From: Bacteroidales bacterium
GTDB taxonomy: Bacteria > Bacteroidota > Bacteroidia > Bacteroidales > UBA932
Assembly: GCA_017428035.1 (NCBI GenBank)
Contig: JAFRRR010000058.1
Span: 1-64,000 of the forward strand
Length of the DNA stretch: 64,000 nucleotides
Reading direction: 5' to 3'
Shown here: piece after piece, positions 662-30,456 of the stretch
Layout of the letters: each line of letters starts with the position of its first letter
Numbering within the stretch: position 1 is the first letter of the stretch
Notes under the pieces: generated by a model
The model's database searches: none
What the model saw: only the letters and a program-made list of their open reading frames with translations
What the model was told of the DNA's origin: nothing
Position numbers and translations under genes: made by a program

Positions 662-703
662 AGAGTTCCGTCTGTGTGCCGCAAAAATAGTAATTTTACG
701 GCG

Positions 704-4225: not shown

Positions 4226-4286
4226 AAAAAACTTCGCTCCGGGCCAGGGAGAACATAGAACCCCTGTTCCCTACGCGAAGTTTTTT
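4226..4286. repeat. Palindromic element family I, copy a; terminator-like between galE and namZ
   Basis: The arms AAAAAACTTCGC (4226-4237) and GCGAAGTTTTTT (4275-4286) are perfect, with T8 following on the plus strand and A6 before, so it can serve as a bidirectional terminator for the convergent galE and namZ genes. The interior has the core TCCGGGCC and an inner hairpin AGGGAGAACA/TGTTCCCT. A further outer inverted repeat TAAAACCCTTC (from 4206) and GAAGGGTTTTA (from 4302) surrounds it. The same element is found inside two coding genes at 9992-10051 and 28499-28559. Confidence 0.85.
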
Positions 4287-4409
4287 TTCGCTTATTTGTG
4301 AAGGGTTTTAACTCCTCTTTTTTGAGAAGGGTTTTAGTACGTACATTCTCTGTACCTGCGCGAGTTATATTTCTACGCTGATTGCGGAGGTCTTTTTTTG
4401 GTATCTGGA

Positions 4410-7250: not shown

Positions 7251-9014
7251 TCATTCTTCTCCATAATGTGTCGATATAGTTGCTCCGGGATAGTAATGCT
7301 GCAGGATGGTACGGTAGTCGTAGCCGCGGGCGCCCATTGCGGCGGCGCCAATCTGGCACAGCCCCACGCCGTGGCCCCAGCCGGCGCCGTGGAGTATGAA
7401 CTTTGCGGGGGCCCGGCCTTCCGCTCCGAGAATACTTTGCCCGGCAACACTTTTTTTATTTAGACGATGCTCCGCCTCGCAAACTTTCTCTGCGCCGGAA
7501 GCCGGGCAATACCCCTTCTCCACCACAAATGCAGAGCTGTACAAATGGCTGCGGGAGAGGGTCTTGCGGATTTCCAGCTCCTTACCGATGATTTTGGTCT
7601 TTTTGCTGCCGACGATTCTCAGGCGGCAGATGCGACCTGAGACGCCGCGCTCCAGCGGAATCAGGTCGCGGATCTCGCCGTAGTCCTCTCCGGTGCGCTC
7701 CAGTATAATCTGGCGCAATTCTTCTGCGGTATATTCCACCCTCCAGCGGTAGAAATCTTTGGTCTCGCTGTCGTAGTCTTTGAGGACCTGGCCCAGCAGG
7801 CGTGCACTGCGGGTATTGCAGAATGCGCGCGGGCTGGAAAGTATCCACTTACGGGCGGCTGATTCCTGACGCAGGTCCGTTTGCGCTCCGGCGGCCGCAT
7901 TGCTTTGGGCAACCAGCAGACCATCGGGCTTGCGGCCGCCTCCGGCAAGTGTCGTTTCCCTGTCACGGGCATATTTCAGATACGGCACCTCCTTATTCTC
8001 CCAGCAGTACTTGAACTCCTCGAGCGCGCCGCCGCAGCATTTGGAAAAGCGGGCGTCGCACACGCGGCCGTCGTACCAGAGCACCTGGCCCCAGGTGGCC
8101 TCGATGACACGCTTTGTCTTCCGGAGCATAGCTGGGTCGACCCTTGCCCCGCCCTGGAGGGCATCGTCTTGAGTATCAGCACATTGCAAACTATCGCTAT
8201 GCCCTGTTTGGGGGGAGTGATTATTCGTAAGCTCCTTTGTATCAGCAAATTTAGCTCCAGGAGCCATAGCTGTAGCAGCCATAGACATAGGGATTCCCTG
8301 GTAGCGCTGACAGTGGTCGTCGGCACAGAAATCGAACCACTCGTGGTCTTCGCGGTCCTGCCAGCGGATCAGCTCGTCCGGGGTGTCACACTCCACAGAA
8401 GAATATGTCCCCGCCCGTTTGCCGGCAGCGGACATCCTTTGTACCTCGTCGCGCTTGTCCAGCTGGGCCAGCAGCCACGAGCGGGATATCACGGCGTGGG
8501 CCTTCAGGAACTCGAAACCGGCGCTGGGCGACATTTCGGATGCAATTACGCACTGCAGATAATCTTCTATACCTACGACGTTTATGGCTATGACGCGGCC
8601 GTGGCGGGCGATGAGTTTCAAATCACCCGGAAAGGACTGGTCCTGATAGCGCTGCCAATGGAAGCCTTTGCCTATTTCGACGTTCTTGAGGGTGAAGTAT
8701 TGTTTAGACTGGAGTGTAACAGTTTCATTCTTAGCTATTTCCCCAAAGTGCCCCCCTACAGAATCAGGGGAGGCATTATTTATATTTCTCTGATTATCAA
8801 CATTATCCGCTTCAGCAGCACGGTCAGCGCGTCCGGCACAGCCTTCAGCAAAATACCACTCGGGACGCGCCTCGCCGTCAATCACCACCTGGCCGTCGCA
8901 TTCGGTAGCCACAAAAACTGTCTCCCCGCCGAGCGAGAATTCCACCCTGTCGGCCTCGAGAATGCCGACGCTTATCGTGCGCTGTTTTCCGATATGCGTG
9001 CCTGAAGTTCCCAC
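7251..9014 (-). CDS. SpoIID/LytB domain protein with several in-frame inserts
   Basis: 587 residues from GTG 9014, overlapping the upstream glycosyltransferase by about 43 bp; no closer start precedes the conserved ISVGILEADRVEF. SpoIID hallmarks are ASEMSPSAGFEFLKAHAV (helix with the catalytic-type Glu), CADDHCQRYQG, DARFSKCCGG and the C-terminal GWGHGVGLCQIGA. SpoIID proteins are lytic transglycosylases acting on denuded glycan; related Bacteroidota proteins sit with NamZ and AmpG-like genes. No signal peptide is evident, which is odd for a wall enzyme. At least four segments (around residues 62-110, 240-285, 350-390 and 490-530) are low-complexity inserts, three of them enclosing inverted repeats at DNA level; the core motifs stay intact. 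Confidence 0.8.
   Translation of the reverse strand: MGTSGTHIGKQRTISVGILEADRVEFSLGGETVFVATECDGQVVIDGEARPEWYFAEGCAGRADRAAEADNVDNQRNINNASPDSVGGHFGEIAKNETVTLQSKQYFTLKNVEIGKGFHWQRYQDQSFPGDLKLIARHGRVIAINVVGIEDYLQCVIASEMSPSAGFEFLKAHAVISRSWLLAQLDKRDEVQRMSAAGKRAGTYSSVECDTPDELIRWQDREDHEWFDFCADDHCQRYQGIPMSMAATAMAPGAKFADTKELTNNHSPQTGHSDSLQCADTQDDALQGGARVDPAMLRKTKRVIEATWGQVLWYDGRVCDARFSKCCGGALEEFKYCWENKEVPYLKYARDRETTLAGGGRKPDGLLVAQSNAAAGAQTDLRQESAARKWILSSPRAFCNTRSARLLGQVLKDYDSETKDFYRWRVEYTAEELRQIILERTGEDYGEIRDLIPLERGVSGRICRLRIVGSKKTKIIGKELEIRKTLSRSHLYSSAFVVEKGYCPASGAEKVCEAEHRLNKKSVAGQSILGAEGRAPAKFILHGAGWGHGVGLCQIGAAAMGARGYDYRTILQHYYPGATISTHYGEE
7411..7507. repeat. Inverted-repeat-bounded insert in the spoIID-like gene (3' part)
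   Basis: GCCCGGCCTTCCG (7411-7423) faces CGGAAGCCGGGC (7496-7507), matching except for one extra C. The enclosed DNA encodes the low-complexity stretch just before the conserved FILHGAGWGHG motif. Confidence 0.6.
7890..7940. repeat. Inverted-repeat-bounded insert in the spoIID-like gene (middle)
   Basis: GGCGGCCGCA (7890-7899) and TGCGGCCGCC (7931-7940) are perfect 10-bp arms around 31 nt. The translated region (AGGGRKPDGLLVAQSNAAAGA) interrupts the conserved domain after the KCCGG motif. Confidence 0.6.
8185..8258 (+). repeat. Palindromic element family II, degenerate copy c (antisense in the spoIID-like gene)
   Basis: ATCGCT (8193-8198) and AGTGAT (8216-8221) are again 23 bp start to start, as in copies a and b, with a similar CCC...GGGGG interior and a following CAGCAA/CTCC tail. 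It lies in the opposite orientation to the gene. Confidence 0.5.
8750..8815. repeat. Hairpin insert in the spoIID-like gene (5' part)
   Basis: CCCCT (8753-8757) pairs with AGGGG (8766-8770), with outer GCC/GGC. The tail to about 8815 (CTCTGATTATCAAC) resembles the tails of the repeats inside metH. The translated product is the asparagine-rich insert near residues 65-90. Confidence 0.45.
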
Positions 9015-10471
9015 GTGCGAATCCTGTCTTTATAAGTGTTGTAACGGTTGGCGGTCGCTACGTCCAGCGACGCATCGCTATTGCCCTCCCAGCGGCGGCA
9101 GAAATACATCACGTCGTATATACGGCCGATGCGATAATGCCGGCTGATGCGCAGCGCCACGGCGTAGTCTTCGCCGTATTTGGTGGTCGGGAAGGTCATT
9201 TCGCGCACCAGCGGGGTGTAAAAGCCGCGCGGCGCGCCCAGTCCGTTGATGCGCAGGGCGTTGTTGCGGCCGTTGTCGGGCGTCCACTCGCGATGCTCTA
9301 TCGGGGCCATATCGGCCGGTTTCAGGGCGATGTCGGTGATTTGGTATGATCCTATCACCATAGCGCAATTCTGAGCGTAGAAGGCCTCTACAAACTTCTG
9401 GACGGTATCTGGGCCGCTGTATACATCGTCGGAGTCGAGCTGCAGGGCAAAGCGGCCGCATTTGGGGTGATGCAGCGCCGCGTTCCAGTTGCCGCCTATG
9501 GCGTGATAGGTCTTGTCCTGGGCAATATAGACCAGTTTGTCGGGATTCTCCGCCGCCAGCTGTGCTATGATTTCTGCGGCGCCGTCGGTGGAATTGTCGT
9601 CCACCACTATCACGTTATATTTGAAAGAGGTCTTCTGGTGCAGCGCGCTTTTTACCGCATCGGCTATGGTGCGGGCGCGGTTGCGGCACGGAATCACCAC
9701 GCTGGCCTCGAATTCGAACTGCTCTGAGTTCAGGTCAATCTCCTTGAAGTCCTTTGGCGCCAGGTAACCGCCGATGGCCTTCAGGTGAGCAGTGCAGGCC
9801 TGCTCCATCTCTATCTGGACCTCGCGGTTGCGCGGGTTCACATAGTCGAACAGCTTCTCGCCAAACTCGCGCGTGTCCATCTCTATGTCGTAGTAGAGGA
9901 ATTCGTTTATGTGGACAATCTTGCCCAGCCGGCTGAGCCGCAGCCGCAGGTCGTAGAAGCCCGCGTATTTGTAGCCGCCCTCTGCTGCTCCGAATATGCT
10001 TCGCTCCGGGCCAGTCGGCTCGTCGCGCCTGTTCCCTACGCGAACATATTCTTCGCAAGGATACGGGCGGCTCATATCGTCGACAGCCTGCTTCAATGCG
10101 GCGGTGCGGATCAGTATCACACTGCCAAAGTCAAAGTCGTCGCGAAGGGAACCCGGCTGGTAGTCAATCACCGGCGCTTCCTGAACCTGGCCGTCGGCGC
10201 CCTGGTTAAAGCGGTCGGCATAGGCCAGCACCGCATCGGTGTCGGCGGCAATCTGCACCATCCGGTGCAGGCCGTGGTGCACCCAGACCAGCCGCGTGGG
10301 CTTATTGTAGATCAGCGTGTATTCACCTTTGGCATTGGCGGCAATCCATTTCACCGCGTCGGTGGAGCGCAGCTCCTCGCGGCAGAACACCTCCCCCACC
10401 AGCGGATTCGCCTTAAGCTCCTGCACCGTGGATTTGTCTGCCGTTGCAATAAAACAAGAAATTCTGGTCAT
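8972..10471 (-). CDS. Glycosyltransferase family 2 protein with N-terminal extension
   Basis: 499 residues from ATG 10471. The C-terminal half is a GT-A fold: ASVVIPCRNRARTIADAV (near 258), the nucleotide-binding VVDDNSTD, and the metal-binding LDSDDVYSG. The N-terminal 200 residues resemble a second, DUF-type glycosyltransferase-like part without clear catalytic residues. No signal or membrane segment, so it acts in the cytosol or at the inner membrane; the acceptor is unknown. It heads the group with SpoIID, AmpG-like and NamZ genes. A family I palindrome is translated inside it (EYVRVGNRRDEPTGPERSIF). A perfect 8-bp inverted repeat sits just upstream of the start. Confidence 0.85.
   Translation of the reverse strand: MTRISCFIATADKSTVQELKANPLVGEVFCREELRSTDAVKWIAANAKGEYTLIYNKPTRLVWVHHGLHRMVQIAADTDAVLAYADRFNQGADGQVQEAPVIDYQPGSLRDDFDFGSVILIRTAALKQAVDDMSRPYPCEEYVRVGNRRDEPTGPERSIFGAAEGGYKYAGFYDLRLRLSRLGKIVHINEFLYYDIEMDTREFGEKLFDYVNPRNREVQIEMEQACTAHLKAIGGYLAPKDFKEIDLNSEQFEFEASVVIPCRNRARTIADAVKSALHQKTSFKYNVIVVDDNSTDGAAEIIAQLAAENPDKLVYIAQDKTYHAIGGNWNAALHHPKCGRFALQLDSDDVYSGPDTVQKFVEAFYAQNCAMVIGSYQITDIALKPADMAPIEHREWTPDNGRNNALRINGLGAPRGFYTPLVREMTFPTTKYGEDYAVALRISRHYRIGRIYDVMYFCRRWEGNSDASLDVATANRYNTYKDRIRTWELQARISENSAR
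9992..10051. repeat. Palindromic element family I, copy c (inside the glycosyltransferase gene)
   Basis: GAATATGCTTCGC (9992-10004) faces GCGAACATATTC (10040-10051), with the family core TTCGCTCCGGGCC and CTGTTCCCTACGCGAA. It is translated on the minus strand in frame, between AVDDMSRPYPCE and GGYKYAGFYDL. Confidence 0.8.
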
Positions 10472-10590: not shown

Positions 10591-13500
10591 CTAAGCGCGA
10601 GGTTGTACTACAGTAACAACATAAGTAGAGGTATGTGTTGAATCTTCAGGATCAGTCCACTTAATTGTAATAGTACCTGTGCGAGTGTTAGATGTACTAT
10701 AATTCTGTCGCGTGATCTTGAAAACCAACGAATGGCTTGTTATTAACGGGCTACCTGTCTCAAGCCATACGTTATCCGAATAGCCAGTAGGAGCATTAAT
10801 TGTTATTTGAAGATCTGAAGCCCTCAGGTTAGGTTTAGCAATGTACGGAACATATAACGTACCAGTCCCATTGAAATCCAAATCGTAATGTTCCGTCAAA
10901 ACGACAAGGTAACGTGCTGCTGCATGCTGAATAACGGGGAGATAGTACTTCTTTACGGAACTGTCTGAAAATGTTGCTGTAACAGTTACAACGCCAATGC
11001 GGGACTTCTCAGAGTCATTCTGTTCTAAGGAAACATCAAAGCTGGCACTATTGCCTACTACGTCCGTGGTGTTGGAAATGGAGATCCAATCCACATTATT
11101 GTCCACCGTGTATGAAACCGCATCTGTACTAAACGGCACATTGACGGTCACGGCCGGAGAGTCTTCCTCTACAACACCAAGGTTGCACTCGATGAAGCCG
11201 GGAGTCGGAGTAGGTTCGGGCATAGCCAGCTGACGGACATCAATTTCCTTGGTAATAGCGGCGCTGCCATCATTGTAAGTAGCTGTTACCCTGACTCTTG
11301 CGTTACGCTCTACACCAGTATTGTTCTGTGCTTTGTACAGCAGAGACCAGCCAGTGTTTTCGCTATAAAGAGTTTCAACTTCCAACCAATCTGAATCAGA
11401 GCTAACAAACTCATAGGTCAGTTTATTTTTAGGACAATCTGTGGCAACGGCCATTCTGTAGCCTCCAGAAGGCATATCTGCTTTAAGAACTACCTCCCTG
11501 GTCGGACTGAGATAGTGAACCGGATCGGGAATTCTTATTACCTGAGCTTTTTCGACAATTGTTGAACCGTCAGCAAAGTGTCCAGTCAGAGTAAGATTAT
11601 TAGTTAACAGCAAGCTAGTAGAGTAGTAAGGTTCCTTCAGGGAAACTTCAAGCTTGAGACCGTCAGCACTCATCCTGGCATACAACCAATCCTGAGCTTC
11701 AGCAGGTACTTCTACGTCAACGCTGGCTGCGTTGGTGTACAGGTACTGCTTGTAGAGCTTAGTTTCATCTGCAGATGCAGAAAGGATGATAGGACCCTGC
11801 TCTAGGAAGTTGGGAACTTCTGTTTCAACGCCCTGCTTAACACTGATAGTTCTAGTGAGCGTACCGTTGGAAAGCGTAATAGTGGCTTCACGATCTGCAC
11901 CTGAATTATTCTCATCACATTTAACAGAGAGAGTTGCATCGTCAGCCTTGTCCACTGTAAGCCAGTCAGCGCCGTCAGTGTATGTGACAGAAGGGGTCCA
12001 GTTGGAAACATTGGTGAAGACAGGAACGCTTTCAGCGACTCCGTCAGTACCAAGTTTATTGTAATACAGGGATTCCTGAGCATACAGATACTTCTCGGGA
12101 GCGGGTGTCTGGAATACTTTGATATCAGCAGAAAGTGTCTGGCCATCAGTATAGGTTGCGGTAACCGTTACTATTGCCTCTCTAGACTGTATTGCGGTAT
12201 TCTCAGTAGGATCAACCAGCAATACAGCATCGTTGTAAGGAGATACTTGCAGCCATGACGATGCCTCAGTAGGAACAACTACCGACAACTCATCCTTGAG
12301 AGCATCAGTATTGAGGGTAACGAGCAGGCCGCCAACGTGATCATTGTCAATAACGACATCCTTGGGAGCATTGAGGTAATGTGTAACAGGCACAGCTCCG
12401 GGAGCCAGCTGTTTGACATTCAATGTCTCTGTCTTGACTTCGCCATCGGCAAAGGTAGCGGTAACAGTAACCACAGCGGTACGCTCGGCACCGGTGTTAG
12501 CCTCTGCTGCCAGTTTCACACTACCCTTGGTAGCGGTCAACCAAGTTGCAGCAGCATCGGCCTCAACTGTGTAGTTTGTTGCATTGGTGAATACATTGAC
12601 TGTCTCTTCAGATGCCTCTGCGGGGAGAGTTACATCGTCAACAGCAAGGAAGAGGTAATTCTCAGCTGCGGGAGCAGGAGTACCCTCATCACCCTTAGCT
12701 GCCTGGAATACGGTGATAACCTTCTCGGCCTGAGTGCCGTCTTCGAACTTGGCAGTAACTGTTACGACACCAGTACGAGGTTCGCCTGTTTCGTTCTCTG
12801 CAATCTTGATCTTAACGTCTCTTGTACCATTCTCGTTGGTGATAATGGAGGCGTACAGCCAACTTGCGTTGGAAGAACGAGCAATTACGCTGGTAGCGTT
12901 GTCATAGATAGGCAGTCTGTCTTCAATCTCCAGATAAGGAACAACCATTGTGCTTACGTAAACATCAAGGATGTTGTCGCTGGGGGACTGGAGTACAGTG
13001 GCTTCGCCCTGGTGGGTCTTGCCTGCCTTGTCAATCAGAGTGACGGTTACTACTGCAGTGCGGGCATCGCCGGTAGTGTTGGCTGCTGCCTCGGCGGGAA
13101 CTCTTACTACGCGGGTGTCTGAGCCAAATTCCTTGGTGCCAAGGGTAAGCCACTCAGCATCGGAAGAAACCTTGACATCTGCAAGTTCGAATTCCTCAGA
13201 GCAGTAAGCACGAAGAACTACGTTCTGCTTTGCGCTGGAGATAGCCTTGCTGGGAGTCAGAATGGTGAATTCTGTTGCACCTGCAGGCTGATCTACAGTG
13301 ATGAGAGCGGTCTTCTTGCTGTTCTTTACAGTTACGTAAGCCTTGCGGTCACGACCTGTGGTATTGGGCTCAGCAACGAGCTTGACGAATGACTTGTCAG
13401 CATTGATAGTTGCTTTCAGCCATGCGGAAGAAGACAATGCGGAACTGAGCTCGTCCTTTGCTATGAAGCCGATCTTGAGGGTCTCACCTGCAGGGTCCAT

Positions 13501-16500
13501 AATGACTTCGTCAACCAGAGCCTCGAGGATGCTATCATCCTTGGCGCCAGCCTGAACAATCTGTACGGTCGCAGTGTGAGTCTTGCCTGCCTCGTCTACA
13601 AAGGTGACCAGAATAGAAGCAGCACGTGCCTCTTCTGCAGTGTTTTCAGCTGCGGTGAAAGGCCTGCTTACATTCTGACCGTTGATAGTCTTGGGCTTGC
13701 CGGTCAGCCAACTTGCATCTGAGCGGAAGGTCATATCATCCTTGTCGTCTACGGTGCTACCATAAGCTGTGATGTTGACATCCTGCTCATTTGAATCGAT
13801 GTAAATAATGTCGGGGGAAAGCAGAGCGAAGTGAGTATCCTTGGCCGGCTGGAATACGGTGATGATCTTGCTCTCGCTGCCGTTGGAAACGGAGATGTAA
13901 GCGGTACGGTCCAGACCGGTGGTATTCTCGGCTGCAGTAATGGTCAGAGTCTGAGGATCAGTAGTATTGTCAATATCAGCCGCAGTAATCCAGGTTGCAG
14001 AAGGAGTAGCGGTCAGAGCATCCTCGGTCTCGAAGGTCAGAACCACGGTCTCGCCTGCAGCGGCTACGGTGATGAAGTCAACAAGTGCCTCAAGCTCGCC
14101 ACCGTCGGTAGCTGCCTGATTTACTACGATTGTCTTCTGAACGGTGTCACCCTTCTCATCGAAGAAGGTAACGATGATTTCACCCTGACGGCGTACACCG
14201 GTGGTGTTTTCAGCAACGGTAAACTCAGCCTCTACGATTTGATCAGTAGCTGCGGGAGCCGTCTTGACGGTGATCCAAGCAGCATTGGGGATCATAGTGA
14301 CCTTATCAGCATTAACGCTTGCGTAAGCGGTAACGGTGATGTCGTTTTCAACCTTGTTCACGAGAACGTTCTCGCCACTGAGGATTGCGAAGTAAGTGCC
14401 AGCTGCAGGCTGGTAAACCATAATCTTCTTCGCGAGGGTCTCGCCCTTGTTGGAAGTGGTGATTACGGTGATGCTTGCGTGACGATCCTTACCGGTTGCG
14501 TTGGCAGCAACTTCGAAGTCAACTACGCCATAGCCGTCTTCAACTGTGACAGGCTGAACGGTAATCCAACCCTCTTCAGAAACCACTGCGCTGAGAGTCT
14601 CGACATTGGTGATGACAGGGAGAGTGAACTTCTCGCCTGCTGCATCGGCAACTACTCTGTCAGAAAGACCGTCAAGTACATTGTATGTACCAGCCTGGGT
14701 TACAGTGAAGCTCTCGGTGCAAGGCACGCCGCCTGCCCTCTCGATGGTAACGGTAACGATAGCGGTACGAGGTTCTGCGGTGGTGTTCTCTTGAACCTTC
14801 ACACCAAGCAGGTTGCTTTCGATATCAAACTCGTAGACAGTCAGCCAGTCTGCATTGTAGTCGTAGTCGGCATTGGTGATGTCGCCGGCTGCGAACATTG
14901 CTACGTGGAATGTCTGCTGATCTTTGCTGAGGACGAAGTTATCCATCGGTATCTCGAGGTACGTGTCGGTTGCCAGCTGAATAACCTGAACGCGTTTCTC
15001 TACGCGGGTCTCGTTCTCTTCACCAGTCCATACAACAAGGGTGGTTTCACGCTGCAGACCAGTTTCGTTGTCATCAGCGGTCCACTTGATGCTGTAGTCG
15101 CCCTCGCCGTAAGCTTCGTCAGGACTGATCCAAGTCGCTGACCAGTCTGCCGTCCAAGTACCAGTGGTGATAACCTGTGTCCAGAAGCTAGCATCGTGTG
15201 CAGGAATGACAACCTTCTCAGGAGATACAGAAAGCATTGCATTCAGAGGATTCTGGTGGATGGTGATGATGTGGGTGAGCTTCTCGCCCTTGTCGGTAAC
15301 GGTGGTGAGAGTTACGTATGCGGTACGTGCCTCTGCGCTCTCGTTCTTCTTCACATCAATTGCAATTTCCTGAGGGTCAACATCCTGGTTAGGAGTGCCG
15401 GGGATTACAGAGCACCAGCCGCCAACCATAGAGCTTACAGAAGTGGATACTTCGGTATTGCCATAGAACGGGAATACTACGACCTCACCCTTAGGAGAAG
15501 CCTCATAGTAGTCTACGTATACATCAAGGATGTTGATGGTAGGAGCCTGGGTAACGATGAAGGTATCGCTGATAGGCTCGCCGGCCTTGAGCTGCAGGGT
15601 TACAGTAACGATTGCGGTACGAGGCTCGGCAGTGGTATTCTCTTCGATGTCGAACTCGAGGGTCGTTGCATCACCGCCGGTGTACTTGATCCAGTCTTCG
15701 CTGCAGTTAACCTGCATGTCGGTGAAGTCACCTGCTGCAAAGTAGCCGACTTCCAGAGTCTGCTCCTCTTTGGTAACAGCGTAGGCTGCGATAGGTATCT
15801 CTATATAGGTGTCGCGAGCGAGCTGGATTACATTAACAACCTGCTCTTCACGTTCGTTGTTCTCGGGACCGGTAGCAACGGTGATTTGTGCGCGACGGTC
15901 GTAGCCGGTGGTATTCTCAGCAGCAGTCCAGTTGATAACTGCGTCGCCAAAGCCTGCAGCTTCGGTGGAGACTCCACCATCTACAGGGTTAGTGAGCCAG
16001 TCGCTGGAGTTGGTTGCCCACCAAGTACCGGTGGTATTGATGGTCATTGCAAACTCTGTTTCGGTTGCAGGGATTACAACTTCCTTGGGAGTTACGCTCA
16101 GTGCTGCATAGAGAGCTGCCTGACGGATGGTGATCACCTTGGTGATCTTCTCACCTGCCTCATTAACGGTAGCGATGGTAACGAATGCAACGCGTGCTTC
16201 GCCGGTGCGGTTGGGGTCAACCTCGATCTTGATGATCTTCTGAGGATCGCTGTAGCTGCAGCATTCTGCCTGATAGCTGTCTTCGTCTACGGCAACTTCT
16301 GCATGTACCCAATCTTCGCTGGAAGATACGCTTACAGGAGTGTTAGCGTAGTAAGGGAGAGCAACTTCGTCGCCACGGGCCATTACATCGATAACGTCTA
16401 CGAATACGTCAAGGATGTTAACGGTAGGAGACTGAGTGAAGGTTACGGGGATTGCGATAGGATCACCGAATACAGGAGTGCAGGTGATGGTAACGATACC

Positions 16501-18411
16501 GGTGCGGACCTCTGCAGTCTTGTTTTCAGAAACTGCAACGTTCACAATGCCGTCGGCGATGTCGCCCACTCTGAGCCAATCTACATTGGAAGAAGCCACA
16601 ACGCTCTCTTCGTTGCCGGAAGTCACGAAGGTAACCTTTGCAAGGCCTCCCCACTTGTCGAACAGGAATGAGCGGACGGGAACTTCAAAGTAGAACTGCT
16701 CGGGACGCTGGGTAACAGTGATGGTAGCGCTCTCGCGCTGGCTGTTTTCAGCACCTGTCTGGATAGTGATGACTGCTACGCGTACCTGGCCGGTCTTGTT
16801 CTCGGCAACATTTACGTTAAGCATATAGTCACCGGTGCCCTCGGTCTTGTCGATGGTCAACCAGTCGCTGTCGCTGCTTGCAGTCCAGCTGTTGTTGGTA
16901 AGAATGCTTGCTACAAAGTTCTGAGCAATAGCATAGAGATTCTTCTCTGCGGGAGATACAACCAGAGTTGAGTAAGCAGCACCCTGACGGATGATGGTGG
17001 TCTTGGAGATAATCTCACCCTTCTCAGAGTCGGTGGTAACTGTTACGACAGCTACGCGAGGAACAGCGGTTTCGTTCTTTTCAACGGTGATGACGAGGTT
17101 CTGGCCGTCAGCCACTACGTTGCACCAAGACTCACTGCTGCGAACTGAAACAGGAGTATTACTATAAATAGGTATACGGAAGGTTTCACCTACCCACTCT
17201 ACTGCATACTCGTCTGCGAGTACATCCAGAATATTGATGGTGGGAGCCTGAGCCACGCGTACCTGACGGATGATAGGATCACCGGCCTGGCCGTGGGTGA
17301 TGAAGGAGATGACGCCTTCGCGTGCGATTGCAGTGGTATTCTCTGCTACGTTAATGGTAGCAACACCGTCTGCAACACTTGCAACTGTCATCCACTTGGA
17401 ACTTGAAGAAGCGGTAACGGTTACGTTGCTGCCCTCGAGAACGTAAGGGATCTCGATGGTCTGCTCTTCAAGGCTCAGAGGATAGTCAGTTACGGGAACA
17501 TCCAGATAGAAATCAACAGCTGCCTGACGTACAACAACCTGGCGGGTAACGCGGTTCTCGTTTTCAGGGCCGGTGGTGAAGGTGATGACTGCAATACGCT
17601 CGCGACCGGTGTCGTTTGCAGTTGCAGTAACGGTGATGAGATTGTCGTTGGAGCCCTCTGTCTCGCTGAGAGTGAGCCAATCGCTGTCTACAGAAGCTGT
17701 CCAGGTACCCTTTGTTGTAACATTCAGGGTGAACTGACCTGCTTCTGCGGTGAGTGTCTGGCTCTCGGGAGATACAACCAGAGCAGCGTTGCTAGCAGAC
17801 TGGGATACCTCAATCTGGTGAACTTCAGTCTTGCCGTCAGCCTCGGTGAGGACAGTGATGGTAGCCACGCGGTCAGCGCCGGTGTTATTCTCTTCTACAG
17901 TAATCTTGAATGCGCCGTTGCCGTCGCCGCTGTCAGGGTCAACTGTGCACCAGTCAGCAGAAGAAGCAACCTCCCAAGGACCGTTGCAAGCAATGCTCAT
18001 AAGATATTCGCCTGCATACTTGGTGAAGGAAACTTTGTCTTTGCCAAGTACAAGTTGTGTACCCTCAGAAGTCTGGCGAACCAGGACTGTGGTGGATACA
18101 ATACCATCGTTGGAGGTGATGGTGATCTTACCCGAACGTTCGTTGGGTGTAGTGTTGGCTGCTACAAAGAACTCGAAAGTACCCTTGTGATTGCCAAAGC
18201 CGTTGTCAACGGTGATCCACTCTACATCACTGGACGCGGTCCACTGCAGATTGGACTCAATAACAACGGTGCCTTTTCCCGTCTCGGGGCCGACAAGCAC
18301 GACTTCGTGGTCGGCTTTCAGGAACGGAATCTCCTCCTCGTAGCAACCTGTGGTGAGGAATGCTGCGAGAACGAAGCAAAGAACCGAAAGGTTTCTCAAA
18401 AGTTTTTTCAT
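10591..18411 (-). CDS. Giant lipoprotein of about 27 tandem BACON domains
   Basis: 2606 residues. The signal peptide ends in the lipobox TTGC (Cys23), so it is lipid-anchored and probably surface-exposed. The rest is about 27 Ig-like BACON domains of about 95 residues, each with a central W-[IL] strand, an EN.T...R...ITV strand and a closing VxQ. BACON domains are often linked to carbohydrate or mucin binding, but no catalytic or other module is present. Domains 3-14 form four copies of a three-domain unit and domains 15-20 three copies of a two-domain unit. Domains 21-27 are more divergent and more AT-rich. It is the last gene of a three-gene operon, 12 bp after the OmpA/TPR gene. A long filament-like adhesin or stalk is a plausible role, not shown. 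Confidence 0.9.
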   Translation of the reverse strand: MKKLLRNLSVLCFVLAAFLTTGCYEEEIPFLKADHEVVLVGPETGKGTVVIESNLQWTASSDVEWITVDNGFGNHKGTFEFFVAANTTPNERSGKITITSNDGIVSTTVLVRQTSEGTQLVLGKDKVSFTKYAGEYLMSIACNGPWEVASSADWCTVDPDSGDGNGAFKITVEENNTGADRVATITVLTEADGKTEVHQIEVSQSASNAALVVSPESQTLTAEAGQFTLNVTTKGTWTASVDSDWLTLSETEGSNDNLITVTATANDTGRERIAVITFTTGPENENRVTRQVVVRQAAVDFYLDVPVTDYPLSLEEQTIEIPYVLEGSNVTVTASSSSKWMTVASVADGVATINVAENTTAIAREGVISFITHGQAGDPIIRQVRVAQAPTINILDVLADEYAVEWVGETFRIPIYSNTPVSVRSSESWCNVVADGQNLVITVEKNETAVPRVAVVTVTTDSEKGEIISKTTIIRQGAAYSTLVVSPAEKNLYAIAQNFVASILTNNSWTASSDSDWLTIDKTEGTGDYMLNVNVAENKTGQVRVAVITIQTGAENSQRESATITVTQRPEQFYFEVPVRSFLFDKWGGLAKVTFVTSGNEESVVASSNVDWLRVGDIADGIVNVAVSENKTAEVRTGIVTITCTPVFGDPIAIPVTFTQSPTVNILDVFVDVIDVMARGDEVALPYYANTPVSVSSSEDWVHAEVAVDEDSYQAECCSYSDPQKIIKIEVDPNRTGEARVAFVTIATVNEAGEKITKVITIRQAALYAALSVTPKEVVIPATETEFAMTINTTGTWWATNSSDWLTNPVDGGVSTEAAGFGDAVINWTAAENTTGYDRRAQITVATGPENNEREEQVVNVIQLARDTYIEIPIAAYAVTKEEQTLEVGYFAAGDFTDMQVNCSEDWIKYTGGDATTLEFDIEENTTAEPRTAIVTVTLQLKAGEPISDTFIVTQAPTINILDVYVDYYEASPKGEVVVFPFYGNTEVSTSVSSMVGGWCSVIPGTPNQDVDPQEIAIDVKKNESAEARTAYVTLTTVTDKGEKLTHIITIHQNPLNAMLSVSPEKVVIPAHDASFWTQVITTGTWTADWSATWISPDEAYGEGDYSIKWTADDNETGLQRETTLVVWTGEENETRVEKRVQVIQLATDTYLEIPMDNFVLSKDQQTFHVAMFAAGDITNADYDYNADWLTVYEFDIESNLLGVKVQENTTAEPRTAIVTVTIERAGGVPCTESFTVTQAGTYNVLDGLSDRVVADAAGEKFTLPVITNVETLSAVVSEEGWITVQPVTVEDGYGVVDFEVAANATGKDRHASITVITTSNKGETLAKKIMVYQPAAGTYFAILSGENVLVNKVENDITVTAYASVNADKVTMIPNAAWITVKTAPAATDQIVEAEFTVAENTTGVRRQGEIIVTFFDEKGDTVQKTIVVNQAATDGGELEALVDFITVAAAGETVVLTFETEDALTATPSATWITAADIDNTTDPQTLTITAAENTTGLDRTAYISVSNGSESKIITVFQPAKDTHFALLSPDIIYIDSNEQDVNITAYGSTVDDKDDMTFRSDASWLTGKPKTINGQNVSRPFTAAENTAEEARAASILVTFVDEAGKTHTATVQIVQAGAKDDSILEALVDEVIMDPAGETLKIGFIAKDELSSALSSSAWLKATINADKSFVKLVAEPNTTGRDRKAYVTVKNSKKTALITVDQPAGATEFTILTPSKAISSAKQNVVLRAYCSEEFELADVKVSSDAEWLTLGTKEFGSDTRVVRVPAEAAANTTGDARTAVVTVTLIDKAGKTHQGEATVLQSPSDNILDVYVSTMVVPYLEIEDRLPIYDNATSVIARSSNASWLYASIITNENGTRDVKIKIAENETGEPRTGVVTVTAKFEDGTQAEKVITVFQAAKGDEGTPAPAAENYLFLAVDDVTLPAEASEETVNVFTNATNYTVEADAAATWLTATKGSVKLAAEANTGAERTAVVTVTATFADGEVKTETLNVKQLAPGAVPVTHYLNAPKDVVIDNDHVGGLLVTLNTDALKDELSVVVPTEASSWLQVSPYNDAVLLVDPTENTAIQSREAIVTVTATYTDGQTLSADIKVFQTPAPEKYLYAQESLYYNKLGTDGVAESVPVFTNVSNWTPSVTYTDGADWLTVDKADDATLSVKCDENNSGADREATITLSNGTLTRTISVKQGVETEVPNFLEQGPIILSASADETKLYKQYLYTNAASVDVEVPAEAQDWLYARMSADGLKLEVSLKEPYYSTSLLLTNNLTLTGHFADGSTIVEKAQVIRIPDPVHYLSPTREVVLKADMPSGGYRMAVATDCPKNKLTYEFVSSDSDWLEVETLYSENTGWSLLYKAQNNTGVERNARVRVTATYNDGSAAITKEIDVRQLAMPEPTPTPGFIECNLGVVEEDSPAVTVNVPFSTDAVSYTVDNNVDWISISNTTDVVGNSASFDVSLEQNDSEKSRIGVVTVTATFSDSSVKKYYLPVIQHAAARYLVVLTEHYDLDFNGTGTLYVPYIAKPNLRASDLQITINAPTGYSDNVWLETGSPLITSHSLVFKITRQNYSTSNTRTGTITIKWTDPEDSTHTSTYVVTVVQPRA
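12695..14400 (-). repeat. Three copies of a two-domain BACON super-repeat (D-E)x3
   Basis: D domains begin with TYFAIL, THFALL or TEFTIL. E domains begin with LEALVD (twice) or NILDVYV. The D-E pair recurs three times with a period near 189 residues. Confidence 0.7.
14400..17787 (-). repeat. Four copies of a three-domain BACON super-repeat (A-B-C)x4
   Basis: Domain types can be told by their starts: A begins LxVSP (with GxENxxR near its end), B begins YLDVP/YIEIP, C begins NILDV. The order A-B-C occurs four times with a period near 282 residues (about 850 bp), indicating block duplication after the three types had diverged. Confidence 0.8.
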
Positions 18412-26062: not shown

Positions 26063-26070
26063 TACCTTTG
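26063..26070 (+). promoter_or_regulatory. metH -7 box; transcript probably leaderless or nearly so
   Basis: TACCTTTG matches TAnnTTTG and ends 6 bp before ATG 26077. No well-spaced TTG was found at -33. If used, the mRNA would start at or next to the start codon. Confidence 0.5.
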
Positions 26071-26076
26071 GCCGTG

Positions 26077-29000
26077 ATGAAGGCAGATCTGAACACTTTG
26101 CTGCAAAGCAGAATCCTGCGGCTGGACGGCGGCCTGGGCACTATGATACAGGCGCTGCAGCTGGAGGAATGGGATTTTCGCGGCCGCGAATTCCTCAAGT
26201 GGAAATGCCCCCTGAAAGGGTGTATGGACCTGCTTTGCCTCACCGCTCCCCGCTCTGTCGGAGCCATTCACCGCGCCTATCTGCAGGCCGGTGCCGACAT
26301 TGTCACCACCAATTCTTTCAGCGCAAACGCCATCTCCCTAAGGGAGTACGGACTTGAAAAATATGCCCGCAGGATTGCCCGCGAGGCGGCCCGGATAGCC
26401 CGGGAAGAGGCCGACAAGTTTGACAATAGGTTTGTGGCGGGCAGTATGGGGCCGACCTCCAAAACGGCTTCAATTGCCGCCAGCGTAGAGGACAGCGCCG
26501 CGCGCGATGTCACCTTTGCAGAGCTTGCAGAAGCCTACTACGAGCAGGCGGCGGGGCTGGCAGAGGGCGGCGTGGACGCCTTTCTGCTGGAGACGGTGTT
26601 CGACACCCTCAACGCCAAGGCGGCCATTTTCGCGCTGGAGCGGCTGCGCCGGGATACGGGCTGCGATATTCCGCTAATGATATCGGTCACCGTGTCGCAG
26701 AAGGCGGGCCGGACCCTCTCCGGGCAGACCATAGAGGCCTTCTGGACCTCGGTCAAGCACGGCCGTCCGCTTAGCGTGGGCATCAACTGCTCTTTCGGAG
26801 CACGGGAGATGCTGCCTCATCTGGAAAGGCTGGCGGCGGTGGCCGACTGCTATATAAGCGTGCATCCCAACGCCGGCCTGCCCAACATCTCTGGCGGCTA
26901 CGACGAAACTCCAGAGAGTTTTGCCGCCGCTATGAAGCCCTATGCAGAGCGCGGTCTGGTGAATATTATGGGCGGCTGCTGCGGCACCACCCCAGATTTT
27001 ATCAAGGCGCTGGGGCCCCTGGTGGATTCTTTCGCGCCGCGCCGCCTGCCGGATTCTCCCCGGGAAACGGTGGTCTGCGGCCTGGAGGCCCTCAGGATAG
27101 TGCCGGAGGCCAACTTTATCAATATAGGCGAGCGGTGCAACGTGGCCGGAAGCGCCAAGTTTGCCCGTATGATACGCGAGGGCGACTATGCCGGAGCCAT
27201 TGCCGTGGCCCGCACTCAGGTGGCCGCCGGCGGGCAGATTATTGACGTATGTATGGACGACGGGCTGATAGACGGTCCGGCGGCTATGCGCACTTTTTTG
27301 AATATGGCGGCTGGCGAGGTAGACATCGCCCGGGTGCCGTTTATGATAGATTCTTCTTCGCTGGACACCATAGTGGCGGGGCTGGAGTGCTGCCAGGGCA
27401 AGGCCATTGTGAACTCCATCTCGCTCAAGGAGGGTCCCGAAGAGTTCCTGCGGCGGGCCGCTCTGATACGTTCTTACGGCATTGCGGCAGTTGTGATGCT
27501 GTTTGACGAAGAGGGGCAGGCCACAAGTTTCGAACGTAAGATTGCAGTTGCGCGGCGCGCCTACGACCTTTTGATTGAAAGCGGTTTCCCCGCAGAAGAT
27601 ATCATTTTCGATCCAAATATTCTGGCAGTTGCCACGGGAATCAAAGAGCACGACCGCTATGCGCTTGATTTCATAGAGGCTACCCGCTGGATCAAAGAGA
27701 ATCTCCCTTACGCAAAGGTTTCGGGCGGGGTTTCTAACCTTTCCTTTGCCTTTCGCGGCAACAATGCGGTGCGCGAGGCTATGCATTCGGCATTTCTTTA
27801 TCACGCACGGCTGGCCGGGATGGATATGGGCATAGTCAATCCCCAGATGCTCAGGGTTTATGACGATATTCCCGGGGAGTTGCTGGAGCGTGTAGAAGAT
27901 GTGATTCTGTGCCGTCGCGCCGACGCTTGCGAGAGGCTCTCGGCATATGCAGCTCAGGTGCGCGAAAGTGCTGCCGCTCAGGTATCTGCCGCAGAGGACT
28001 GGCGGGCAGGTTCGCCTCAGGAGCGCATAAGCTACGCTATGTTGCACGGCATTGCCGACCATATAGAAGAGGACTGCCTGGAGGCCCTTAAGGCCGCCGG
28101 AACGCCGCTGGAGGTCATTAACAATATGATGATGCCGGCAATGGAGCGCGTTGGGGTGCTGTTTGGCGAGGGCAAGATGTTCCTGCCGCAGGTGGTCAAG
28201 GCCGCCGGCGTTATGAAGCGCGGCGTGAGTGCGCTTATGGGGGATGTGGATTCCGACGGGAACCGTCTCTCTGGGGCGGTAGAATCCGGCGAGAAGGGCG
28301 ATGCGGGAGATGCCGCTCCCGGCGAGAAGGGCGCTGCGAGAGATGCCGCTCCCGGCGAGAAGGGCGATGCGGGGGTTGCTGCTCCCGGCGAGAAGGGCGA
28401 TGCGGGAGATGCCGCTCCCGGCGAGAAGGGCGATGCGGGGGTTGCTGCTCCCGGCGAGAATCATCTTGCGGGGGATGCCTCTCCCGGCTCTGGCTCCGAA
28501 AAAGCTTCGCTCCGGGCCGCGGAGAACATAGAACCCGCGTTCCCTACGCGAAGTTTTTCTACGCCGGGCGAGCCGGGAACACACTCAGGGCAGCAAGCTC
28601 CCACTCCGCCAGACGCAGCAGCGCCGGGAACACACTCAGGGCAGCAAGCTCCCACTCCGCCAGACGCAGCAGCGTCGGGAACTCACGCAGGGCAGCTATC
28701 ATCCGCGTCTCCCGCAGCTGCCACGGCATCGGTAGCAGCCGCAAATCTCGGAGCGACTGGAGGGCAACGCTCTGACCACCAACAAGTTACAGACAATCGC
28801 TACCCCTATTCTGGTGGGAGCGATATTCAGCAATATTCTAACAATCAACACGATAGCCTCCAGCCTAAAACGCGGGTTGTGATTGCAACCGTGAAGGGTG
28901 ACATCCACGACATCGGCAAGAATATCGTTTCGGTGGTGCTGTCGGTGGGCGGTTGCAGCATCGTGGACCTGGGCGTGATGGTAGAGCCAGGCGCCATTGT

Positions 29001-30456
29001 AGAGGCGGTGAAGGCCAACAATGCCGACTATGTGTGCCTCAGCGGGCTCATCACCCCGTCGCTGGAGCAGATGATTGTGGTGCTGCGCCATCTCAAGCAG
29101 GCCGGTATCACCATTCCGGTGATTGTGGGCGGAGCCACAACGAGCCCGATGCACACAGCCGTAAAGATGGCTCCCGAATATGACGGACTGGTGGTCCACT
29201 CCACCGACGCCAGCCGCAACATGCAGATTATAAACCAGTTGCAGAGCCCCATCGCACGTGTGCACATTGCCGGCATCCTGGCAGAGCAGCAGCGGCTGCG
29301 CGATCTTTACACCTCCGCCCAGGACCGTCGCCCCTTGGAGGACTATCACCAGCGTCTGGATATGGCCGAGGCTGCACGGCGAGCACAAAACGGACAGGGC
29401 GCTCAGGAAGGACAAGATGGGCGAACAGGACAGGACGCTCAGGAAGGACAAGATGGGCGAACAGGACAGGACGCTCAGGAAAGACAAGATGGGCGAACAG
29501 GACAGGGCGCTCACGAGAGACTAGACAGACGGGGCGTTGAGGCCGGGGGTTTAGCTGGCAGACAAACGCCTAACAGTCAATCAGATACACAAACCAACCC
29601 CCTGCCGGCGAGGGGGAGTTGTTTTTCACATCTCGCTGATAATCAGGCAGATAGCTGCCAGCGCATATTCAGTTTCCACCATTACGACATCAATGCGGTG
29701 GAAAAACACCTCGACTGGGATATGTTCTTCGCCGAGTGGGGCGTTAGAGACGATGCTTCCCGTCGGGAGCTCAAGGCCGAAGCCCTGCAGATGCTCGCCC
29801 GCATCAAGCGTGAGGATGCTCTTGACCTTCAGGGCGTTATAGGCACCTTCCCCGTCCGGGTACAGGGCGACGACATCTTTGTTATAGCCCGCCCGACAGA
29901 CACTCTTAACGAAGCGCAACCCCAACCCGGAGACGCCGGATGCCCGCAAGCAGTCTTCCCCACCCTCCGCAATCAGACCGCCGGGGAAGAGAATCTCTCC
30001 GTGGCCGATTTTGCGGCGGCGGCAGCAGAAGTCACCCTGTTTGCAATCAGCGCGGGCATTGGCCTGAAACAATTTGCAGAACGCCTCAAAGCGGAGGGCG
30101 ATGAATACGGCTCCTTTATGGCAAAGACCCTGGCTGATGCTCTCACAGAGGCGCTGGCAGACGAGGTCGTCCCGGCAAAGGAGGGCGAGCGCCACGCCTT
30201 TGGCTATCCTTCGTGCCCCGACCACAGCCTCAAAGCCGAGGCGTTCAGGCTGCTGAATGTAGAGCAGGCCTGCGACCTGCGCCTCACCGACAGTTATATG
30301 ATTGACCCAGCCGAGTCCATCTGCGGAATGGTGATCCGCGGCGCCAGATACTTTGCAGTGGGCCATATCGGGGCGGACCAGCTTAGCGACTACGCCCGCC
30401 GCCGCAACATAAGCGAAGACACTCTCAAGACCTTAATTCCCAGAAACATACTATGA
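26077..30456 (+). CDS. metH: Cobalamin-dependent methionine synthase, enlarged by repeat-rich inserts
   Basis: 1459 residues, against about 1230 for E. coli MetH. It transfers the methyl group of methyl-tetrahydrofolate to homocysteine through cobalamin. Domains in order: homocysteine/zinc (GINCSFG near 237, GGCCGTT near 298), pterin-binding (INIGERCNV near 347, to about 600), helical cap (about 640-735), cobalamin-binding (DIHDIG with the axial His near 944) and AdoMet activation (about 1198-1459). Two inserts fall in linkers: about 200 residues between cap and Rossmann part of the B12 module, and about 90 residues between B12 and AdoMet domains. They consist of tandem repeats and palindromic elements. 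ATG 26077 is preferred to TTG 26068. The stop overlaps the metF start by 4 bp. Confidence 0.96.
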   Translation: MKADLNTLLQSRILRLDGGLGTMIQALQLEEWDFRGREFLKWKCPLKGCMDLLCLTAPRSVGAIHRAYLQAGADIVTTNSFSANAISLREYGLEKYARRIAREAARIAREEADKFDNRFVAGSMGPTSKTASIAASVEDSAARDVTFAELAEAYYEQAAGLAEGGVDAFLLETVFDTLNAKAAIFALERLRRDTGCDIPLMISVTVSQKAGRTLSGQTIEAFWTSVKHGRPLSVGINCSFGAREMLPHLERLAAVADCYISVHPNAGLPNISGGYDETPESFAAAMKPYAERGLVNIMGGCCGTTPDFIKALGPLVDSFAPRRLPDSPRETVVCGLEALRIVPEANFINIGERCNVAGSAKFARMIREGDYAGAIAVARTQVAAGGQIIDVCMDDGLIDGPAAMRTFLNMAAGEVDIARVPFMIDSSSLDTIVAGLECCQGKAIVNSISLKEGPEEFLRRAALIRSYGIAAVVMLFDEEGQATSFERKIAVARRAYDLLIESGFPAEDIIFDPNILAVATGIKEHDRYALDFIEATRWIKENLPYAKVSGGVSNLSFAFRGNNAVREAMHSAFLYHARLAGMDMGIVNPQMLRVYDDIPGELLERVEDVILCRRADACERLSAYAAQVRESAAAQVSAAEDWRAGSPQERISYAMLHGIADHIEEDCLEALKAAGTPLEVINNMMMPAMERVGVLFGEGKMFLPQVVKAAGVMKRGVSALMGDVDSDGNRLSGAVESGEKGDAGDAAPGEKGAARDAAPGEKGDAGVAAPGEKGDAGDAAPGEKGDAGVAAPGENHLAGDASPGSGSEKASLRAAENIEPAFPTRSFSTPGEPGTHSGQQAPTPPDAAAPGTHSGQQAPTPPDAAASGTHAGQLSSASPAAATASVAAANLGATGGQRSDHQQVTDNRYPYSGGSDIQQYSNNQHDSLQPKTRVVIATVKGDIHDIGKNIVSVVLSVGGCSIVDLGVMVEPGAIVEAVKANNADYVCLSGLITPSLEQMIVVLRHLKQAGITIPVIVGGATTSPMHTAVKMAPEYDGLVVHSTDASRNMQIINQLQSPIARVHIAGILAEQQRLRDLYTSAQDRRPLEDYHQRLDMAEAARRAQNGQGAQEGQDGRTGQDAQEGQDGRTGQDAQERQDGRTGQGAHERLDRRGVEAGGLAGRQTPNSQSDTQTNPLPARGSCFSHLADNQADSCQRIFSFHHYDINAVEKHLDWDMFFAEWGVRDDASRRELKAEALQMLARIKREDALDLQGVIGTFPVRVQGDDIFVIARPTDTLNEAQPQPGDAGCPQAVFPTLRNQTAGEENLSVADFAAAAAEVTLFAISAGIGLKQFAERLKAEGDEYGSFMAKTLADALTEALADEVVPAKEGERHAFGYPSCPDHSLKAEAFRLLNVEQACDLRLTDSYMIDPAESICGMVIRGARYFAVGHIGADQLSDYARRRNISEDTLKTLIPRNIL
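28288..28485 (+). repeat. 33-bp in-frame tandem repeat, six copies, in metH
   Basis: Units start at 28288, 28321, 28354, 28387, 28420 and 28453. Each encodes an 11-residue unit like GEKGDAGDAAP. The last unit is degenerate. It forms the first part of the cap/B12 linker insert. Confidence 0.9.
28499..28559 (+). repeat. Palindromic element family I, copy b (inside metH)
   Basis: GAAAAAGCTTCGC at the left faces GCGAAGTTTTTC at the right, with the family core GCTCCGGGCC, GGAGAACATAGAACCC and GTTCCCTACGCGAAG. By eye it is nearly identical to the intergenic copy at 4226-4286. It is translated in frame as KASLRAAENIEPAFPTRSF. Confidence 0.88.
28573..28700 (+). repeat. 51-bp in-frame tandem repeat in metH
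   Basis: Units at 28573-28623 and 28624-28674 encode PGTHSGQQAPTPPDAAA twice. A partial third copy follows to about 28700. Confidence 0.88.
28795..28865 (+). repeat. Palindromic element family II, copy b (inside metH)
   Basis: ATCGCT (28796-28801) and AGCGAT (28819-28824), then a 41-bp tail ending GATAGCCTCCAGCC. It is translated as GSDIQQYSNNQHDSLQP, in the same frame as copy a in the ABC gene. It abuts the first strand of the cobalamin domain (TRVVIATVKGDIHD). Confidence 0.78.
29392..29520 (+). repeat. 36-bp in-frame tandem repeat in metH
   Basis: Units at 29392-29427, 29428-29463 and 29464-29499 and a partial fourth encode repeats of GQDAQEGQDGRT. They lie in the linker between the cobalamin and AdoMet domains. 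Confidence 0.88.
29590..29667 (+). repeat. REP-like hairpin plus tail in metH
   Basis: CCCCCT (29598-29603) pairs with AGGGGG (29611-29616), extended by AACCAA/TTGTT. The following tail CTGATAATCAGGCAGATAGC resembles the family II tail. It is translated as NPLPARGSCFSHLADNQADS. Confidence 0.6.

Follow-up and report, generated by a model that had tools for sequence, protein, structure and literature searches.

We describe a palindromic repeat of 106 or 107 bp that, in our judgment, is very probably a REPIN spread by a RAYT transposase, with insertions in genes that survive in loops and linkers, in a single reading phase that encodes a hydrophilic peptide. The window, as we call the whole stretch of DNA analyzed here, comprises 64,000 nt from a Bacteroidales bacterium (GCA_017428035.1, contig JAFRRR010000058.1, positions 1-64,000). 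The source genome is a 2.26-Mb draft of an uncultured rumen-type Bacteroidales.

Definition and boundaries of the element

A pattern search for the central palindrome ATCRCTN{16,18}AGYGAT returned 10 places in the 2.26-Mb genome, and its reversed control returned none, a result far outside chance. At all 10 places CTGGAG and CTCCAG lie exactly 39 nt outside the centre, and these ends were absent from the search pattern. The constant distance of the two flanking hexamers from the palindrome thus delimits a unit of 106 or 107 bp with the architecture CTGGAG-33 nt-ATCRCT-N16/17-AGYGAT-33 nt-CTCCAG. The two arms share a half-site (roughly CTGGAGSnnAnnnnnYTGAnnnnYAGnnnnnTTnynnAnAATCRCT), which is inverted between the arms in each of the 10 seed copies, so that each is one palindromic unit, as in a REPIN. 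In the own genome, lone half-sites did not exceed chance, and no transposon carrying these half-sites at a wide separation was found.

A covariance model of the element (R1) detected 17 copies dispersed in the host genome, all of 106 or 107 bp. Five are in the window, where spoIID and metH each hold two and the ABC gene one (Table 1). Up to about 32 copies occur in another genome (G007). Nearly every copy listed measures 106 or 107 bp, the exceptions noted being four (104, 108, 108 and 135 bp), and identity between copies within one genome is low (about 50-57% of positions, median). The seed copies contain GGAG within CTGGAG (compare the GTAG/GGAG tetranucleotide of REPINs), and copies in other species end in CTGGCA or GTGGCA. 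At three loci of two genomes (L218, L226 and L230; G007 and G020) the outer stem is GTGGCA/TGCCAC or CTGTCAG/CTGCCAG, not CTGGAG/CTCCAG. These genomes hold several RAYT genes, and the variant subfamilies are probably RAYT-specific REPIN types.

A preliminary description of the window had reported two copies (2381-2454 and 28795-28865) with ATCGCT/AGCGAT arms at 23-bp spacing and a shared tail. Both are present as described, and the tail forms a family of 51 bp at 82% identity. Only the 3' two thirds of each element had been seen, however. A third site, antisense in spoIID (8193-8221), also exists but had been called degenerate, whereas it marks the middle of a complete and good copy (spoIID copy a). 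That the repeat is a RAYT-associated REPIN had not been recognized.

Table 1 Copies of the element in the window and the open reading frames that host them (R1, score with the covariance model)
Feature	Positions	Strand	Details
Two-domain ABC ATPase (ModF-like), host ORF	674-2761	+	695 aa
REPIN in ModF-like ABC ATPase gene	2346-2452	+	107 bp, CTGGAG/CTCCAG bounded, R1 87.1 bits
SpoIID/LytB-domain protein, host ORF	7251-9014	-	587 aa; sister species 426 aa
REPIN copy a in spoIID-like gene	8154-8260	-	107 bp, R1 77.8 bits
REPIN copy b in spoIID-like gene	8709-8815	-	107 bp, diverged, R1 49.4 bits
Methionine synthase MetH, host ORF	26068-30456	+	1462 aa; sister species about 1193 aa
REPIN copy 1 in metH	28757-28863	+	107 bp, CTGGAG/CTCCAG bounded, R1 88.2 bits
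REPIN copy 2 in metH	29555-29661	+	107 bp, diverged, CTGGCAG/CTGCCAG ends, R1 48 bits

Pairing within the element

Pairing was assessed by covariation in 130 distinct copies. Strong covariation joins columns 1-7 to 101-107 (outer stem) and columns 40-48 to 60-68 (centre), with z-scores of 12 and 22 relative to shuffles; hairpin formation with pairing kept by covariation, as expected of a REPIN, is borne out for these two parts. No support remains for a cloverleaf or tRNA-like fold with one hairpin per arm, which had been drawn by eye and built into R1: the arm pairs do no better than shuffles. The same test gives no support to a long hairpin formed by cross-pairing of the arms. As the arms lack covariation, their conserved letters probably matter through sequence recognition and not through pairing.

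Association with a transposase gene

In the own genome (C62), two inverted copies of the element flank a gene with a HUH motif (L107, C62:24394-25534). This gene is split by a frameshift into two overlapping ORFs. Its counterpart in the sister species (G018, L169) is intact, with 326 aa, and overlaps at its 3' end with the downstream REPIN. The RAYT proteins are about 310-326 aa long and carry a C-terminal extension of about 160 aa. The RAYT matches Pfam Y1_Tnp (PF01797) above the cut-off (E = 1.7e-7) and NCBIfam NF047646 (REP_Tyr_transpos) with 35.1 bits, below the cut-off of 80, so the name RAYT rests on fold and genomic association. The HUH histidines and the tyrosine of the Y-x-Y/F-NNP motif are invariant columns in 11 homologues; L239 has YVSNNH at this place. 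An AlphaFold (AF2) model of the RAYT (pTM 0.82) was matched by Foldseek to IS608 TnpA, ISDra2 TnpA and 4ER8, a REP transposase bound to a REP hairpin, and 4ER8 had the highest TM-scores among the matches listed.

Of 12 RAYT loci measured, 11 have a REPIN at a distance of 26-65 bp from the gene, as is expected of a REPtron. Across 26 genomes, nine have both RAYT and element, three the element only, one the RAYT only and 13 neither (Fisher p = 8e-4). The three REPIN-positive genomes without a RAYT match (G004, G006 and G023) are incomplete assemblies, and the converse case is G013, which has a RAYT and no REPIN match. Given the proximity to RAYT genes and the co-occurrence, the arrangement is that of a REPtron and the element is best called a RAYT-associated REPIN.

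Reading frame and length of the copies within genes

The frame table covers 131 copies of 106 or 107 bp, a sample of the better-scoring copies fetched stretch by stretch. We defined a copy as inside a long ORF when at least 40 codons lay on each side and at least 150 codons in total. Coding status was taken from ORF length and Pfam domains, not from expression, and the genomes are draft metagenome-assembled ones; translation of the inserts is inferred. By this definition 37 copies (about 28%), in nine or more species, are coding, and the extragenic habit of REPINs is not met.

Phase 1 (xCT GGA Gnn ... CTC CAG) is used by 35 of these 37 copies, on either strand, and phase 0 by two. Because the element is palindromic, either orientation of insertion yields the same phase. 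When clear orthologues are collapsed, about 28 roughly independent events in phase 1 remain, against two. In the window, metH copy 1 translates as TGGQRSDHQQVTDNRYPYSGGSDIQQYSNNQHDSLQ and the ABC copy as PGGKLTEAQTDTDYRSTINYGSDLQQNPNNQTDSLQ, and the minus-strand reading of spoIID copy a in the same phase is PGAKFADTKELTNNHSPQTGHSDSLQCADTQDDALQ; spoIID copy b, also on the minus strand, and metH copy 2 keep that phase as well. The preliminary description had correctly read GSD(L/I)QQ..NNQ.DSLQP in both the ABC gene and metH and had noted that one frame is kept in these two genes, naming beforehand a search for further copies, with their frames tabulated, as the test. Neither of the outcomes it had named as refuting occurred: the search yielded well over 100 copies, and the coding ones are not spread over the frames.

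Length also separates the two settings. Copies of 107 bp make up 29 of the 37 coding copies compared with 21 of the 94 noncoding ones, 73 of which are 106 bp long (odds ratio 12.6, p = 4.4e-9). The phase-1 coding copies comprise 28 of 107 bp and seven of 106 bp. In the own genome all eight coding copies have 107 bp, and eight of the nine noncoding copies have 106 bp. Nearest neighbours share the same coding class in 84% of cases, as opposed to 59% for shuffled labels.

The phase bias could be a by-product of stop codons if phase 1 were the only frame open through the element. Phase 2 is indeed closed by the conserved YTGA motif in every coding 107-bp copy (open in 0 of 28). Phase 0, however, is open in 13 of the 28 and is almost never used. 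In noncoding 107-bp copies phase 1 is open in only 5% and phase 0 in 29%, so that in coding copies stops in phase 1 have been removed or avoided. As phase use also departs from the expectation weighted by openness (p about 2e-4), we regard this explanation as unlikely.

A common frame would likewise follow, without any role for the protein, if the transposase targeted a short sequence of fixed codon phase, such as CTCCAG/CTGGAG. The single clean empty site, described below, keeps exactly CTCCAG, and the same HisD residue has been struck in two species, as targeting would have it. Yet CTGGAG is mostly in phase 0 in the ORFs of the window (40 of 49) and CTCCAG has no dominant phase there, so hexamer targets predict about 15% of insertions in phase 1, compared with 28 of 30 roughly independent events observed. 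We give frame-biased insertion rather little credence, although we cannot fully exclude it.

The preliminary description had left the choice between selection on the protein and frame-biased insertion undecided. Selection is the better supported by the stops, by the hexamer phase and by the peptides themselves, which in phase 1 are strongly hydrophilic (GRAVY -1.02; Q, S, D, G and T leading) and in phase 0 hydrophobic (+0.26). Because neither stops alone nor the phase of the terminal hexamers predicts frame use, we favor selection at the protein level. That selection on the peptide causes the bias remains an inference: codon-position entropies, used as a test for purifying selection on the peptide, revealed no relaxed third positions, and direct purifying selection is not demonstrated.

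Distribution, host loops and empty sites

Of 25 genomes of the same genus, 12 contain the element. None was found in 16 genomes of other families or, with the stricter filters of Infernal, in 197 other genomes across the order, the window's own genome being the sole positive of 198. The element returns to the same host genes in different species, and in metH, hisB, hisD, spoIID, the ABC gene and the MPase-malQ linker it does so in the same loops. These hosts are metH (at two linkers), hisB (in the linker joining the HAD and IGPD domains), hisD (G023 and G010 share the residue), spoIID (at two loops), the ModF-like ABC protein, a protein with an HHH domain and an ORF that joins a metallophosphoesterase to a 4-alpha-glucanotransferase (MPase-malQ). 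The NamZ, U32 and MacB proteins are hosts in one genome each. At L104 and L168, from two species, a calcineurin-like phosphoesterase and a 4-alpha-glucanotransferase domain share one ORF, and the REPIN forms part of their linker.

Some sites are inherited. In metH, copy 1 of the window occupies the linker between the cap and B12-binding domains and copy 2 the linker before the activation domain; the latter site is occupied in five species, with copies of 106 bp in L019, L020, L026, G009 and G010. The hisB insert is present in the own genome, G007 and G020. Others look like repeated arrivals, because such copies are closest to a copy in a different gene of their own genome. Among named MetH proteins the nearest is that of MAG Tb.RUG.408 (94% identical).

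The sister species has no element at the metH (L018 for copy 1), ABC, hisB and both spoIID sites. The spoIID copy a is also absent from the G007 and G020 orthologues, as from G018; in the loop of copy b, a REPIN is present in G007 and G020 and missing in G018. The linkers of the sister are shorter by whole codons (246 bp for ABC, 144 bp for spoIID copy a and 135 bp for copy b), and at the ABC insert G018:C97 has a 34-bp stretch compared with 280 bp in the window. These coding empty sites are blurred by divergence of the loops themselves, and since the surrounding loops and tandem repeats differ too, they yielded no clean rules for the target site. One intergenic empty site is clean (own C62:2385 compared with G018:C153): CTCCAG is kept at the junction and the net gain is 101 bp for a 106-bp copy. 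From this single site we infer, by analogy, that a copy of 107 bp would lengthen a gene by 102 bp and so by whole codons.

An immobile structured RNA or regulatory element, kept at its site by conservation, would account for the strict length and the covarying stems despite low identity, as well as for the vertical conservation at metH linker 2 (five species) and hisB (three). It would not be expected on either strand of many unrelated genes, absent from sister orthologues and linked to a RAYT; the element has no match in Rfam, and we consider this explanation very improbable. That coding copies are excised from the RNA or bypassed in translation, with the frame irrelevant, might be supposed for so strong a palindrome within essential-looking enzymes, but it is barely credible given the 35:2 phase bias, the phase-specific removal of stops and the phase-specific hydrophilicity, none of which is expected of an untranslated insert.

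Proposed mode of spread

In the reading that we prefer, a genus-specific RAYT would disseminate the REPIN in trans. The mobile form would probably be a single-stranded hairpin held by the outer stem CTGGAGG/CCTCCAG and the central stem ATCGCT/AGCGAT. Insertions into genes would survive only in exposed loops or interdomain linkers and only when in phase 1, which has been kept stop-free and encodes a 36-residue hydrophilic, probably disordered peptide. The 107-bp variant, one base longer, predominates in genes, where the coding class seems to spread mostly from gene to gene, while the 106-bp class occupies intergenic space. Transposition by the RAYT and the single-stranded route are both inferred, and no transposition event was seen. 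The low identity of copies within a genome is unusual for an active REPIN population, and the own RAYT is frameshifted, although that of the sister is intact; both points count against this reading.

A bolder version, which we hold only tentatively and with somewhat more doubt than belief, is that the family has split into two niche lineages: an intergenic one of 106 bp, and an intragenic one of 107 bp that moves from loop to loop with its own translatable hydrophilic linker and repeatedly colonizes the same loops of the same enzymes. If true, this would mean mobile DNA adapted to coding sequence as its habitat, from which proteins gain new linkers.

Comparison with known repeats

REPINs and REPtrons of RAYT (TnpA_REP) transposases are well described (Bertels and Rainey 2011, PMC3116915; PMC6006769). 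Like them, the element is a dispersed inverted REP doublet of about 110 bp that forms a hairpin and lies a short distance from a Y1/HUH RAYT gene, and its size is similar to that of the Pseudomonas REPIN unit. Unlike the published REPINs, which are described as extragenic (PMC3116915, PMC6006769), the present family has many copies in genes. Its half-site is CTGGAG...YTGANNNNYAG...ATCRCT in place of a compact GTAG hairpin, and the low identity between copies, the fixed length and the RAYT size also differ.

Intragenic GTAG/CGTC REPs have been reported in ORFs of unrelated proteins, sometimes twice per gene, and were judged to lie in flexible linkers (PMC3733652). The text of that report consulted here describes residues encoded by the REPs but mentions no common frame, coding-specific length class or genus-wide recurrence of loops, all of which distinguish the present copies. 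Similar behavior is known from the palindromic elements of Rickettsia (RPE-1 and others; Ogata and Claverie, cited in PMC3733652 and PMC10969869), palindromes of about 100-150 bp inserted in-frame in many protein genes with a conserved peptide. In-frame insertion into unrelated genes with a conserved peptide is met here too, with 35 of 37 copies in one phase. We suggest a similarity of behavior only and do not claim membership, since phylum, sequence and length differ and a RAYT is linked here; for the CGTC repeats, including RPE-4 and RPE-6, no dedicated transposase was found in PMC3733652.

The TnpA_Y1 subclass 2.6 of Bacteroidetes (PMC6006769) and the TIRtrons (PMC3733652) likewise pair a Y1 transposase gene with flanking long inverted repeats or atypical secondary structures, further copies of which lie elsewhere in the genome. 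In place of NH[LIV]H and YIH[QN]NP, the present RAYT carries DH[IL]H and Y[LF][YF]NNP, together with the C-terminal extension. In-gene REPs and in-frame Rickettsia palindromes (PMC3733652, PMC10969869), REPINs with RAYTs (PMC3116915) and flanked Bacteroidetes Y1 transposases (PMC6006769) are already known. A limited literature search found no description of a RAYT-linked REPIN with a coding length class, a preferred frame and loop recurrence across a genus, and the coding-specific length class and the recurrent host loops appear to be new. The in-frame palindromes of Rickettsia have no known mobilizing enzyme and no clear account of why the frame is retained. Here a candidate transposase lies next to the element, many species can be compared, empty sites exist and copies in genes differ in length from those outside, so the system allows a direct test of whether protein selection or insertion bias sets the frame. 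It also bears on how selfish DNA becomes spacer within housekeeping enzymes.

Other repeats in the window

The REPIN-hosting ORFs also contain in-frame tandem repeats at 719-822 (48 bp), 2193-2316 (39 bp), 28286-28488 (33 bp), 28572-28696 (51 bp) and 29392-29513 (36 bp). The metH linkers that hold 28286-28696 and 29392-29513 correspond to much shorter stretches in the sister species, and the lineage seems generally prone to expand its linkers.

A second hairpin family (AAAAACTTCGCTCCGGG...CCTACGCGAAGTTTTT), unrelated to the REPIN, occurs at 4226-4291 and 28499-28564, with a fragment at 10028-10056. One copy is translated as part of metH and is also conserved in the sister species, whose genome (G018) holds at least 20 copies at about 84-97% identity, and the family therefore looks more recently active than the REPIN family. 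Elsewhere in the window, 10591-18411 encodes a 2606-aa protein with more than 20 BACON domains, and 61435-63432 is an ORF of BspA-type leucine-rich repeats with a repeat period of 78 bp.
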